The position numbers and the translations under genes were made by a program. From Hyphomicrobiales bacterium (lineage in GTDB: Bacteria > Pseudomonadota > Alphaproteobacteria > Parvibaculales > Parvibaculaceae): a DNA stretch of 64,000 nucleotides. How positions within the stretch are numbered: position 1 is the first letter of the stretch; the number at the start of each line of letters is the position of its first letter. The DNA is taken from positions 186,001 through 250,000 of the forward strand of contig WGND01000003.1 of NCBI GenBank assembly GCA_016124805.1. The letters are read 5' to 3'. Positions 43,112 through 62,659 of the stretch are shown piece by piece. The notes below the pieces were generated by a model. That model searched no databases, was not told the origin of the DNA, and worked only from the letters and a program-made list of their open reading frames with translations.

Positions 43112-43867
43112 TTATTCCTCGTCATCCCCTTCGACTTTCACATCCTTGAGCTTGGCAAAAACGCTGTCGGCATCGTAGCGCTTTTCGCCTTCTTCTGCGC
43201 CGTGGCGGCTTTGCTCATGCTTGACGTCAGGGCTTGCAATTGTTGCATGCAGCGGTTCGGCGGGCGCGCCGGCGGTCTCGCTTGCGGGCAGCAATGTCTC
43301 GACAATCGTGCCGTCCTTGATGCCCTTGCGGCGCTCGCGCTCCAGGCGACGGGCGGCTTTCTGCACGGCGGCATCGAGTTCGATCTGAGTGCAGAGGCCG
43401 AGCGTCACGGGATCGACCGGCTTGATATTGGCCGAATTCCAGTGTGAACGATCGCGCACGCTCTGGATGGTGGGCTTGGTTGTGCCGACGAGCTTGGAAA
43501 CCTGCGCATCGGTCAGTTCAGGATGATTGCGCAGCAGCCAGGCCACGGCATCGGGACGGTCCTGACGGCGGGAGACGGGTGTGTAGCGGGGCCCCTTGCG
43601 CGGTGCGACGGGCGGCAGCTTGTATTTGCTTTCAGCAACCTTCAGGCGCGTGGACGGATCGTCCTGACAGCGCTCGATTTCGGCGCGGCTGAGCTGGCCC
43701 GAAGCGACAGGGTCCATGCCCTTGATGCCCTGGGCGACGTCGCCATCGGCGATGCCTTTGACTTCGAGCACATGCAGGCCGCAGAAATCTGCGATCTGGT
43801 CGAAGGAGAGGGCCGTGTTTTCAACCAGCCAGACGGCGGTTGCTTTGGGCATGAGGGGCTGAGTCAT
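43112..43867 (-). CDS. trcR: Cell cycle transcriptional regulator TrcR (DUF1013)
   Basis: 251 residues of the DUF1013 family. The N-terminus (KATAVWLVENTALSFDQIAD, GLHVLEVKGIADGD) looks like a helix-turn-helix; the middle has RPDAVAWLLRNHPELTDAQV, KLVGTTKPTIQSVRDRSHWN, a second such motif. The C-terminal 70 residues are acidic and variable. In Caulobacter the homologue, TrcR, associates with RNA polymerase and affects ctrA expression. GAGGAAATC precedes the ATG. It is a single-gene unit, convergent with the synthetase gene. Confidence 0.93.
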   Translation of the reverse strand: MTQPLMPKATAVWLVENTALSFDQIADFCGLHVLEVKGIADGDVAQGIKGMDPVASGQLSRAEIERCQDDPSTRLKVAESKYKLPPVAPRKGPRYTPVSRRQDRPDAVAWLLRNHPELTDAQVSKLVGTTKPTIQSVRDRSHWNSANIKPVDPVTLGLCTQIELDAAVQKAARRLERERRKGIKDGTIVETLLPASETAGAPAEPLHATIASPDVKHEQSRHGAEEGEKRYDADSVFAKLKDVKVEGDDEE

Positions 43868-45085: not shown

Positions 45086-45286
45086 ATGGATACAGATGAT
45101 CTGGAGCCCCGCAAAAGGCGCGGAGAAGCCCTTGCAGCGCTTGCCAGGGAGGATCTGGGCTTGCTGGGTGTGGCAGAGCTGGAGGACCGAATCAGCGCGC
45201 TGGAGGCCGAAATGGCCCGCATCAGGGTTGAGTTGGAGAAAAAGCAGGGTACGCGGAATGCCGCAGAGGCTCTTTTTCGAAAATAG
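45086..45286 (+). CDS. DUF1192 family protein
   Basis: 66 residues: MDTDDLEPRKRR, then LAREDLGLLGVAELEDRISALEAEMARIR split over the conserved core, a charged helix and the ending KKQGTRNAAEALFRK. This is the alphaproteobacterial DUF1192 family, always small, helical, of unknown function. GGAGAGG lies before the ATG. It is divergent from the quinone oxidoreductase, the arrangement seen across the class. No gene follows for 341 bases; that stretch carries the candidate small RNA. Confidence 0.9.
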   Translation: MDTDDLEPRKRRGEALAALAREDLGLLGVAELEDRISALEAEMARIRVELEKKQGTRNAAEALFRK

Positions 45287-45410
45287 TTTGTGGCGCGCCG
45301 GTGAGGCCAAGGGATTCTAACTAAAGGGATTTTTCCATTTCTCAGCTGTGAATTATCCCGATATGGAACATTTGGAGGTCAGGATGGCGCTTTTGAGGTT
45401 TGTAGTGAGA

Positions 45411-45429
45411 TTAACTTTTCGTTAGATTC
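45411..45429 (+). promoter_or_regulatory. CtrA-like box with overlapping GANTC site
   Basis: TTAA (45411-45414)-N7-TTAG (45422-45425) differs by one base from the CtrA consensus TTAA-N7-TTAA. GATTC (45425-45429), a CcrM methylation site, overlaps its end. A weak -10-like TAGTGT lies at 45438-45443, which matches the placement of CtrA boxes over the -35 region of activated promoters. The candidate small RNA starts just after it. Confidence 0.45.
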
Positions 45430-45445
45430 GGTCTTGCTAGTGTGT

Positions 45446-45544
45446 TCTTCGCGTTATCCATCCTCTGGATCGAGTGGCTCTTGCCACTTTTATGACGCCT
45501 CCCTGTTAGAACTGAGCCGCGGATCTTCCCGCGGCTCCTTTTTT
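45446..45544 (+). ncRNA. Candidate small RNA with anti-Shine-Dalgarno segments
   Basis: In the 341-base gap after DUF1192, three hairpins follow each other. Hairpin 1 is ATCCA-TCCTC-TGGAT (45456-45470) with loop UCCUC. Hairpin 2 is AGTGGC-TCTT-GCCACT (45473-45488). A single-stranded segment with CCTCCC (45498-45503) follows, then a strong terminator hairpin (45514-45537) with a T run. The UCCUC loop and CCUCCC segment are complementary to ribosome-binding sites, as in sRNAs that block translation. The promoter-like CtrA box at 45411 lies just upstream. The start point is a guess; the gene and its function are inference. Confidence 0.5.
45514..45544 (+). terminator. Intrinsic terminator of the candidate small RNA
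   Basis: GAGCCGCGG (45514-45522) pairs perfectly with CCGCGGCTC (45529-45537) around ATCTTC, followed by CTTTTTT. It lies 84 bases before the DUF1465 start and well after DUF1192, so it ends a transcript that begins between the two genes or reads through from DUF1192. Confidence 0.88.
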
Positions 45545-45627
45545 GATGCACAGGCTTGGCTGTATCATTAAAGCTGGCACGATAGTTGATCCCTGACTGT
45601 CATGTGTGTGCCGCAAGGGGACAGGGA

Positions 45628-46224
45628 ATGAACGATCAAGACATAAGCCAGATGAATGATGTGGGGTTTGCTGACGCTGATTGCGTTTCGCTGGCTCAAT
45701 TCATGGCCTCGGGGCTGTTTCAGCGAACCTATGATGAAGGCATGCGGCTGGTTGAGGAAACCTCGGCCTATCTGGATGGGCCCGGTCGTGAGGCCTCGCG
45801 CGGCCTGAGCCGTGAAGCCTCCCTTGCCTATGCCAGCGAGAGCATGCGCCTGACGACCCGCCTGATGCAGGTGGCGGCATGGCTTCTGGTGCGCAAGGCG
45901 CTGCATGAAGGCGAAATCACCGATGATGAGGCAGGGGCTGAGAAATACCGTCTGGCCACCAAGGATATTGCGCGCGCGCCGCGCCATGTGAGCGCTGACG
46001 AGTTGCCTGCGCAGCTGATGGACCTCATCAGCCGTTCCGAGCGTCTCTATGCGCGTGTGGAGCGGCTCGATACGGAACTGAGGGTGCATGTGTCGTCAGC
46101 GACGCCCTCGACCCATCCCATGGCCAACCAGCTGCAGCGTGTGGAGGCTTTCTATCGTGAGACGATGGAAGGCGATCTGGCACCCCGGGCTCATTTCGGG
46201 CGACGCAGCCAGCGGCCTGAGTGA
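45628..46224 (+). CDS. DUF1465 family protein
   Basis: 198 residues from ATG at 45628 with AGGGGACAGGG upstream. The protein is helical, with the conserved core LYDEGMRLVEETSAYLDGPGR-like TYDEGMRLVEETSAYLDG, ESMRLTTRLMQVAAWLL and DLISRSERLYARVERLD. It is a DUF1465 member, restricted mainly to alphaproteobacteria, with no settled function to my knowledge; its place near TrcR and a CtrA box suggests it may have a cell-cycle link, which is inference. A terminator follows 22 bases after the stop. Confidence 0.9.
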   Translation: MNDQDISQMNDVGFADADCVSLAQFMASGLFQRTYDEGMRLVEETSAYLDGPGREASRGLSREASLAYASESMRLTTRLMQVAAWLLVRKALHEGEITDDEAGAEKYRLATKDIARAPRHVSADELPAQLMDLISRSERLYARVERLDTELRVHVSSATPSTHPMANQLQRVEAFYRETMEGDLAPRAHFGRRSQRPE

Positions 46225-62455: not shown

Positions 62456-62611
62456 GTGGGTTCTGCCTGTCTCGTTAGGAACAATCACGCTCGGGGCCTT
62501 ACGTTTCTCTAGGGAGCTGTCCCTGAGAAGGACCGTGGTCCTTCACACACGGCGCCCACCTACTTAGGTAGGTCTCCGAGGAACAGATTCCGACGGTCTA
62601 GGCGGGCCCAC
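62456..62611 (+). ncRNA. ssrS: 6S RNA
   Basis: It lies between zapA and the 5-formyltetrahydrofolate cyclo-ligase gene, the place of 6S RNA in proteobacteria. The ends pair: GTGGGTTC-GCCT (from 62456) with AGGC-GGGCCCAC (to 62611), with G-U pairs and one bulge. Inside are further long helices, for example TCTAGGGA / TCCCTGAGA and GGACC / GGTCC arms, consistent with a long hairpin containing a central bubble. 6S RNA binds housekeeping RNA polymerase by mimicking an open promoter. The 156-base span fits alphaproteobacterial examples. Exact ends are estimates. Confidence 0.8.
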
Positions 62612-62659
62612 TTTAAATTCCTTCTTCCTTCGCATCCTGCTTCGGGGGTTCTGGCTTCG

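Follow-up and report, generated by a model that had tools for sequence, protein, structure and literature searches.

A 341-base gap between two genes in a 64-kb stretch of a Parvibaculaceae genome (the window; 64,000 nucleotides of contig WGND01000003.1, Hyphomicrobiales bacterium) almost certainly encodes a small RNA (sRNA) of about 95 nt. From its sequence and predicted structure we assign it to Rfam family BjrC1505 (RF02356), a known but uncharacterised bacterial sRNA family. Our overall reading, which we consider likely, is that of a CtrA-driven BjrC1505 sRNA that is encoded beside rcdA and acts in trans through a CU-rich core. The family had been described before; the new element is its link to CtrA and rcdA. 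No statement of this link was found in the open-access literature searched; the founding BjrC paper (Madhugiri 2012), cited for the BjrC RNAs in PMC7143759, lies outside that search.

A BjrC1505-type small RNA between DUF1192 and rcdA

A search of the whole window against Rfam gave two matches above cut-off, one of which was RF02356 at 45405-45544 (60.8 bits against a gathering score of 50, E 6.1e-9, model positions 1-140 of 140). Such a covariance search had been proposed in a sequence-only reading of this gap, and it was the right test. Both the family core, GACGCCUCCCUGUU, and the GC-rich terminator of RF02356 are present in the window copy. A model built without promoter sequence, R1, placed the sRNA at 45450-45544 on the forward strand (G000:C7:231450-231544). 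This stretch of about 95 nt, whose start is inferred, folds with a z-score of -5.88 against dinucleotide shuffles (0/200 as good), and its minimum-energy fold has an ensemble frequency of 0.05.

Along the forward strand, the sRNA carries hairpin 1 (ATCCA-TCCTC-TGGAT, 45456..45470), hairpin 2 (AGTGGC-TCTT-GCCACT, 45473..45488), the conserved core UGACGCCUCCCUGUU (45493..45507), which includes CCTCCC at 45498-45503, and an intrinsic terminator (45514..45544) consisting of a hairpin at 45514-45537 and a T run. The minimum-energy fold has the core's GACGC paired to the 5' end and leaves CCUCCCUGUU free. A terminator scan returned one site against 1.2 expected, and a sigma-70 promoter scan none. 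The sequence-only reading had located the hairpins, CCTCCC and terminator correctly, together with the box and GATTC site discussed below. The gap it reported, from the DUF1192 stop ending at 45286 to the next start at 45628, and the sRNA of about 95 nt it proposed there are likewise upheld. It had missed that the RNA belongs to a known Rfam family and that the DUF1465 gene encodes RcdA. The observation is therefore confirmed, and its interpretation partly supported.

The window copy is divergent, with the lowest RF02356 score among the 27 matching genomes of its genus and a hairpin 2 loop of UCUU, compared with CUCCUAU in most Parvibaculaceae relatives. Its CU-rich loop appears shifted (45456-45488), with UCCUC in hairpin 1 and CUCCUAU lost from hairpin 2. 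The exposed UCCUC loop, to which the sequence-only reading had given weight, is a weak point of that reading: it is peculiar to the window copy, and relatives have other loops there. The 5' helices of the RF02356 consensus (about positions 1-45) align on the window copy with several non-standard pairs, and we read these model positions as falling on promoter DNA.

RF02356-type matches, a single copy each, were present in 35/40 genomes of the host's family, including 27 of 27 good genomes. Within the 35 Parvibaculaceae loci, tblastn found DUF1192 and DUF1465 in 34 each (the L035 stretch starts too late, and the L038 flank is without DUF1465). In the Parvibaculaceae alignment, the core GACGCCTCCCTGTT is identical in every row except that of the misplaced L038, whose true core is GACGCCTCCCTATA, and a palindromic box stands at a constant distance from the sRNA. 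Across 19 diverse copies, pairing in the three hairpins amounts to 90.6%. Sixteen cells are altered on both sides of a pair, a number reached in none of 500 shuffles, and every slide brought a drop, which bears out the covariation that had been sought in the hairpins; the count of pair types was not unusual among these copies (126/500 shuffles). Two short frames, 45411-45551 (-) and 45434-45571 (+), are unsupported as coding sequences, because single-base indels occur in the loops among relatives.

Over 387 genomes of the class, RF02356 matched 45 at E <= 0.001, 19 of them above cut-off. R1 matched 135 of the 387 at the same threshold, a figure that we do not take as a family count because many weak matches are to another CCTCCC sRNA. 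At 80 named DUF1465 loci, R1 gave 18 matches at E <= 1.4e-6 and one further at 0.011. The named loci with the sRNA include four Microvirga, Nitrobacter, Breoghania, Methyloligella and Taklimakanibacter; no match at E <= 0.011 was obtained at the named Caulobacter, Phenylobacterium, Brevundimonas, Hyphomonadaceae, Robiginitomaculum and Hellea loci. Two genomes, G354 (L062) and G215, have two or more copies, those of G354 lying 200 nt apart.

The other CCTCCC element is itself widespread and sRNA-like, with ACGTCTCCCAGACGTGAAGCCTCCCTGTT followed by a terminator and no DUF1192 or DUF1465 neighbours (loci L198, L201-L204, L206, L207, L209, L211, L214, L215, L218-L220, L222, L224, L227 and L228). 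Fifteen of 16 non-redundant loci of this element are without the box, the exception being L192. L214 scores slightly below the SorX and SuhB cut-offs, whereas for L203 Rfam gave nothing at E <= 0.01. L221 holds a near-threshold ROSE thermosensor match at 763-863 (44.7 bits, cut-off 45).

Linkage to rcdA

The gene downstream of the sRNA (45628..46224, +) is rcdA. Its DUF1465 protein matches the NCBIfam equivalog NF051867 with 187.8 bits (cut-off 170), the solved RcdA structure PDB 3ctw with E 1.6e-42, and PF07323 with 185.1 bits. RcdA is an adaptor for CtrA proteolysis: together with CpdR and PopA, it stimulates the degradation of CtrA by ClpXP (PMC7200025).

In most cases the sRNA gene directly precedes rcdA. 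In an independent sample, 149 Hyphomicrobiales genomes, from the order of G340 (8 Mb), which gave the best RF02356 match, were searched for PF07323, 132 had it, and 130 upstream stretches were used (those of G432 and G450 were left aside, as was the weak second match of G451). R1 found the sRNA upstream of rcdA, always on the same strand, in 122 of these 130 loci. The eight loci without an R1 match were L281, L298, L318, L319, L333, L355, L361 and L363, with L298 (E 0.042) scored as a miss. The median distance from the sRNA to the first in-frame Met was 151 nt (113 loci).

A conserved CtrA-type box in the promoter

Judged from conservation among relatives, CtrA control of the sRNA is very probable. 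The window copy has a CtrA-type box, TTAA-N7-TTAG (TTAACTTTTCGTTAG, 45411..45425, +), which makes seven of eight matches and is conserved across the class at a fixed distance, and a probable -10 element, CTAGTGT (45437..45443, +), assigned in the window copy from its aligned relatives. Since boxes with at least 7/8 matches occur three times in the 64 kb of the window, this single one says little alone, and it is conservation in relatives that carries the case. Among the non-redundant rcdA-linked copies, 98 of 103 have a box of at least 7/8, as the sequence-only reading's CtrA-type promoter would predict, and 45 have a perfect TTAA-N7-TTAA. The corresponding frequencies were 8.7% and 0.6% in shuffled promoters, and 63/3741 and 11/3741 in control windows taken from other parts of these loci. 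In 85 of the 98 boxed copies, the box begins 31-38 nt ahead of the R1 match. In another sample, of 58 boxed loci, the promoter profile reads TTAAC..TTTGTTAA, with a -10-like TA about 12 nt past the box, at positions 26-27 after the box start (T 0.71, A 0.72). The sRNA and perfect boxes also occur together in G477, G507, G530 and G400 of family f151. An earlier count, 45/51 loci against 6.8 expected and 36/3859 control windows, is less clean than that of 98/103, because the Rfam model, through which some of its loci were found, extends over part of the promoter.

The box accompanies the sRNA. At named rcdA loci it was present in 15 of 17 with the sRNA and in 2 of 60 without (the count leaves out L107 and L134, two of 19 with a match, in which a core was not recognised, and one of 61 sRNA-less loci with too short an upstream stretch). 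Conversely, where neither DUF1192 nor rcdA was detected as a neighbour, 13 of 34 non-redundant copies have the box; most of the remaining 21 are the different CCTCCC sRNA, boxed in 1/16. We therefore assign the box to the sRNA.

The sequence-only reading had also invoked GcrA/CcrM-type control, pointing to a GATTC (GANTC) site that overlaps the box (45425..45429, +). This site is not conserved and is probably meaningless. GANTC occurs in the promoter zone of 8/51 non-redundant loci and 3/33 Parvibaculaceae loci, which by our estimate is about chance for a four-base pattern in some 55 positions, and we reject GcrA/CcrM control of the sRNA. The window as a whole contains 110 GANTC sites. Genes for both CtrA (83% identical to the query over 224 aa) and GcrA are present in the host genome (3.21 Mb, 20 contigs).

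Published observations fit a CtrA-driven sRNA beside rcdA, although they do not prove it. In Sinorhizobium meliloti, chromatin immunoprecipitation sequencing placed CtrA sites in the rcdA promoter region, yet rcdA mRNA was unchanged on CtrA depletion (PMC4433202); an sRNA at this position could explain both. A CtrA motif lies upstream of an rcdA transcription start site in the same species (PMC3616915), and Agrobacterium rcdA has several start sites with a possible CtrA site upstream (PMC10469942). In Hyphomonas, rcdA is reported not to be under CtrA regulation (PMC7200025), which fits with the lack of the sRNA at the named Hyphomonadaceae loci.

Mode of action and alternative explanations

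By analogy with known sRNAs, we somewhat favour an anti-Shine-Dalgarno action in trans. The near invariance of the CCUCCC core GACGCCUCCCUGUU makes this plausible, but no target stood out. We claim no specific mRNA target, and none of those considered was convincing. A perfect 14-nt core complement outside the sRNA gene was seen in one relative (L232, G035:C1:52169-52182).

Several results weigh against our interpretation. The sequences share ancestry, so the counts above overstate the number of independent cases, and 5/103 non-redundant copies have fewer than seven box matches. Perfect TTAA-N7-TTAA is not enriched in the host genome (24 sites per strand, compared with 23 for the reversed pattern), a type of count that is not informative as evidence. 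Accessibility of the core is not assured, because on average only some half of the core is unpaired in the minimum-energy fold (mean 0.52 in 93 copies, leaving out 10/103 without a recognisable core). A search for the full core complement in three genomes gave five matches in total; the sole host match was the sRNA gene. When pairing was compared over 51 start regions of the window, ctrA held the median rank and gcrA was within the top 14%, by an RNAduplex calculation that ignores accessibility and takes its background from window genes only. No conserved core complement was found in rcdA, with runs of at least 7 in 9 of the 96 loci used (of 103 copies) and in 3.9% of shuffles. The tight rcdA linkage of the sRNA is compatible with a role in cis as well.

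Such a role could be that of a leader: the element would be the 5' untranslated region of rcdA, through which CtrA drives rcdA itself, with the terminator serving for attenuation, or with the short RNA arising as a side product when transcription ends early. The same-strand position in 122/130 Hyphomicrobiales loci and the median gap of 151 nt speak for this explanation, but we think it unlikely. In thirteen non-redundant boxed copies neither rcdA nor DUF1192 was detected in the flank covered, and no RcdA was detected in 16 of 18 loci scanned with hidden Markov models, where rcdA could lie further off (L053: only about 200 bases downstream). Tandem copies, as in G354, and a terminator that is intact and strong (no search was made for an antiterminator) also argue against a leader, as does S. 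meliloti rcdA mRNA, which does not follow CtrA (PMC4433202). Highly improbable, in our view, is a local feedback in which a CtrA-driven sRNA blocks rcdA translation, so that CtrA shields itself from degradation. It has in its favour the rcdA neighbourhood and a 7-nt ACAGGGA in the rcdA start region of the window, complementary to UCCCUGU of the core; however, the complement is not conserved, with runs of at least 7 in 9/96 loci against 3.9% in shuffled start regions, and 13 of 49 start regions in the window pair equally well or better.

The remaining alternative concerns the promoter. The sRNA could be constitutive or stress-type, with a promoter that merely resembles a CtrA box and another regulator of AT-rich palindromes binding TTWAC-N5-GTWAA. 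Some Parvibaculaceae boxes are indeed GTTTAC-N5-GTAAAC palindromes that depart from TTAA-N7-TTAA, and Sm84, possibly an S. meliloti relative, was assigned a sigma-70 promoter (PMC2573895). Nevertheless, the perfect TTAA-N7-TTAA of 45/103 non-redundant copies and the CtrA occupancy at S. meliloti rcdA (PMC4433202) make this very unlikely.

Comparison with known small RNAs

BjrC1505 resembles the window sRNA in a full-length match above cut-off, the same core and the same terminator, and differs in the hairpin loops of the window copy. SmelC671/Sm84 of S. meliloti (about 100 nt, about 80 by Northern blot) likewise has a single-stranded CUCCCUGU between variable hairpins and a terminator, occurs across Rhizobiales, and lies between SMc03988 and SMc03989 (PMC3927594, PMC2573895, PMC2873474). 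MmgR/SuhB, SorX and SorY have CUCCCUGUU and a terminator in common with the window sRNA, which nonetheless scores below their cut-offs (MmgR/SuhB, RF00519, 31.2 against 41 bits; SorX, RF02784, 21.2 against 46.6; SorY, RF02651, 28.8 against 111). AbcR sRNAs have CU-rich anti-Shine-Dalgarno motifs, but they are tandem genes beside lsrB under other control (PMC7143759).

Two further sRNAs are tied to the cell cycle. CcnA of Caulobacter crescentus also pairs with mRNAs through a C-rich loop, but it is a 182-nt RNA from the replication origin whose CCCC loop binds ctrA and gcrA mRNAs (PMC8959179), whereas the window sRNA lies beside rcdA, is about 95 nt long and carries CCUCCC; no BjrC1505-type match at E <= 0.001 was found in the C. 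vibrioides control genome. EcpR1 (SmelC291) of S. meliloti is another conserved alphaproteobacterial sRNA, with two stem-loops and stringent-response control, but its gene lies between divK-pleD and rpmG (PMC4414408), in contrast to the DUF1192 and rcdA flanks seen here, and the window has no Rfam match to EcpR1.

Neighbouring features of the window

The upstream neighbour of the sRNA is the DUF1192 gene (45086..45286, +; PF06698, 71.3 bits). A TrcR family protein (PF06242, transcriptional cell cycle regulator) is encoded at 43112-43867 on the reverse strand, 1.2 kb before DUF1192. The Rfam search of the window also found 6S RNA at 62457-62612 on the forward strand (58.8 bits, cut-off 46.4).

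Discussion

In our model, the TTAA-N7-TTAG box, which lies across the -35 region, most likely serves as a binding site for phosphorylated CtrA. The bound CtrA would then most probably activate transcription of the sRNA, which would accumulate when CtrA is high; both steps are suggested by conservation. The RNA would consist of two variable hairpins, a conserved core in which CCUCCCUGUU is predicted to be free, and a terminator. Its CU-rich core, which MmgR, SorX and SorY also carry, most likely pairs in trans with purine-rich ribosome-binding sites, lowering the translation of several mRNAs, as AbcR-type sRNAs also suggest (PMC7143759). Hfq is probably involved, as the anatomy and the CU-rich sRNAs of alphaproteobacteria suggest. 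Because the sRNA gene usually lies just ahead of rcdA, whose product promotes CtrA degradation, CtrA may act at this locus on the sRNA and not on rcdA itself.

Taken further, BjrC1505 could be an ancient branch of the CtrA circuit that works post-transcriptionally throughout the class, from a gene kept beside rcdA, and the CtrA occupancy reported at the rhizobial rcdA promoter region could belong to the sRNA and not to rcdA; we give this extension an even chance. Control of the bacterial cell cycle has its model in the CtrA network, whose known arms at the post-transcriptional level (CcnA, EcpR1 and GspR) have each been described from one lineage or order. If our proposal is true, many alphaproteobacterial families would share such an arm, CtrA binding at S. 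meliloti rcdA without an effect on rcdA mRNA would have a simple answer, and an Rfam family that has so far been only a name would gain a function.
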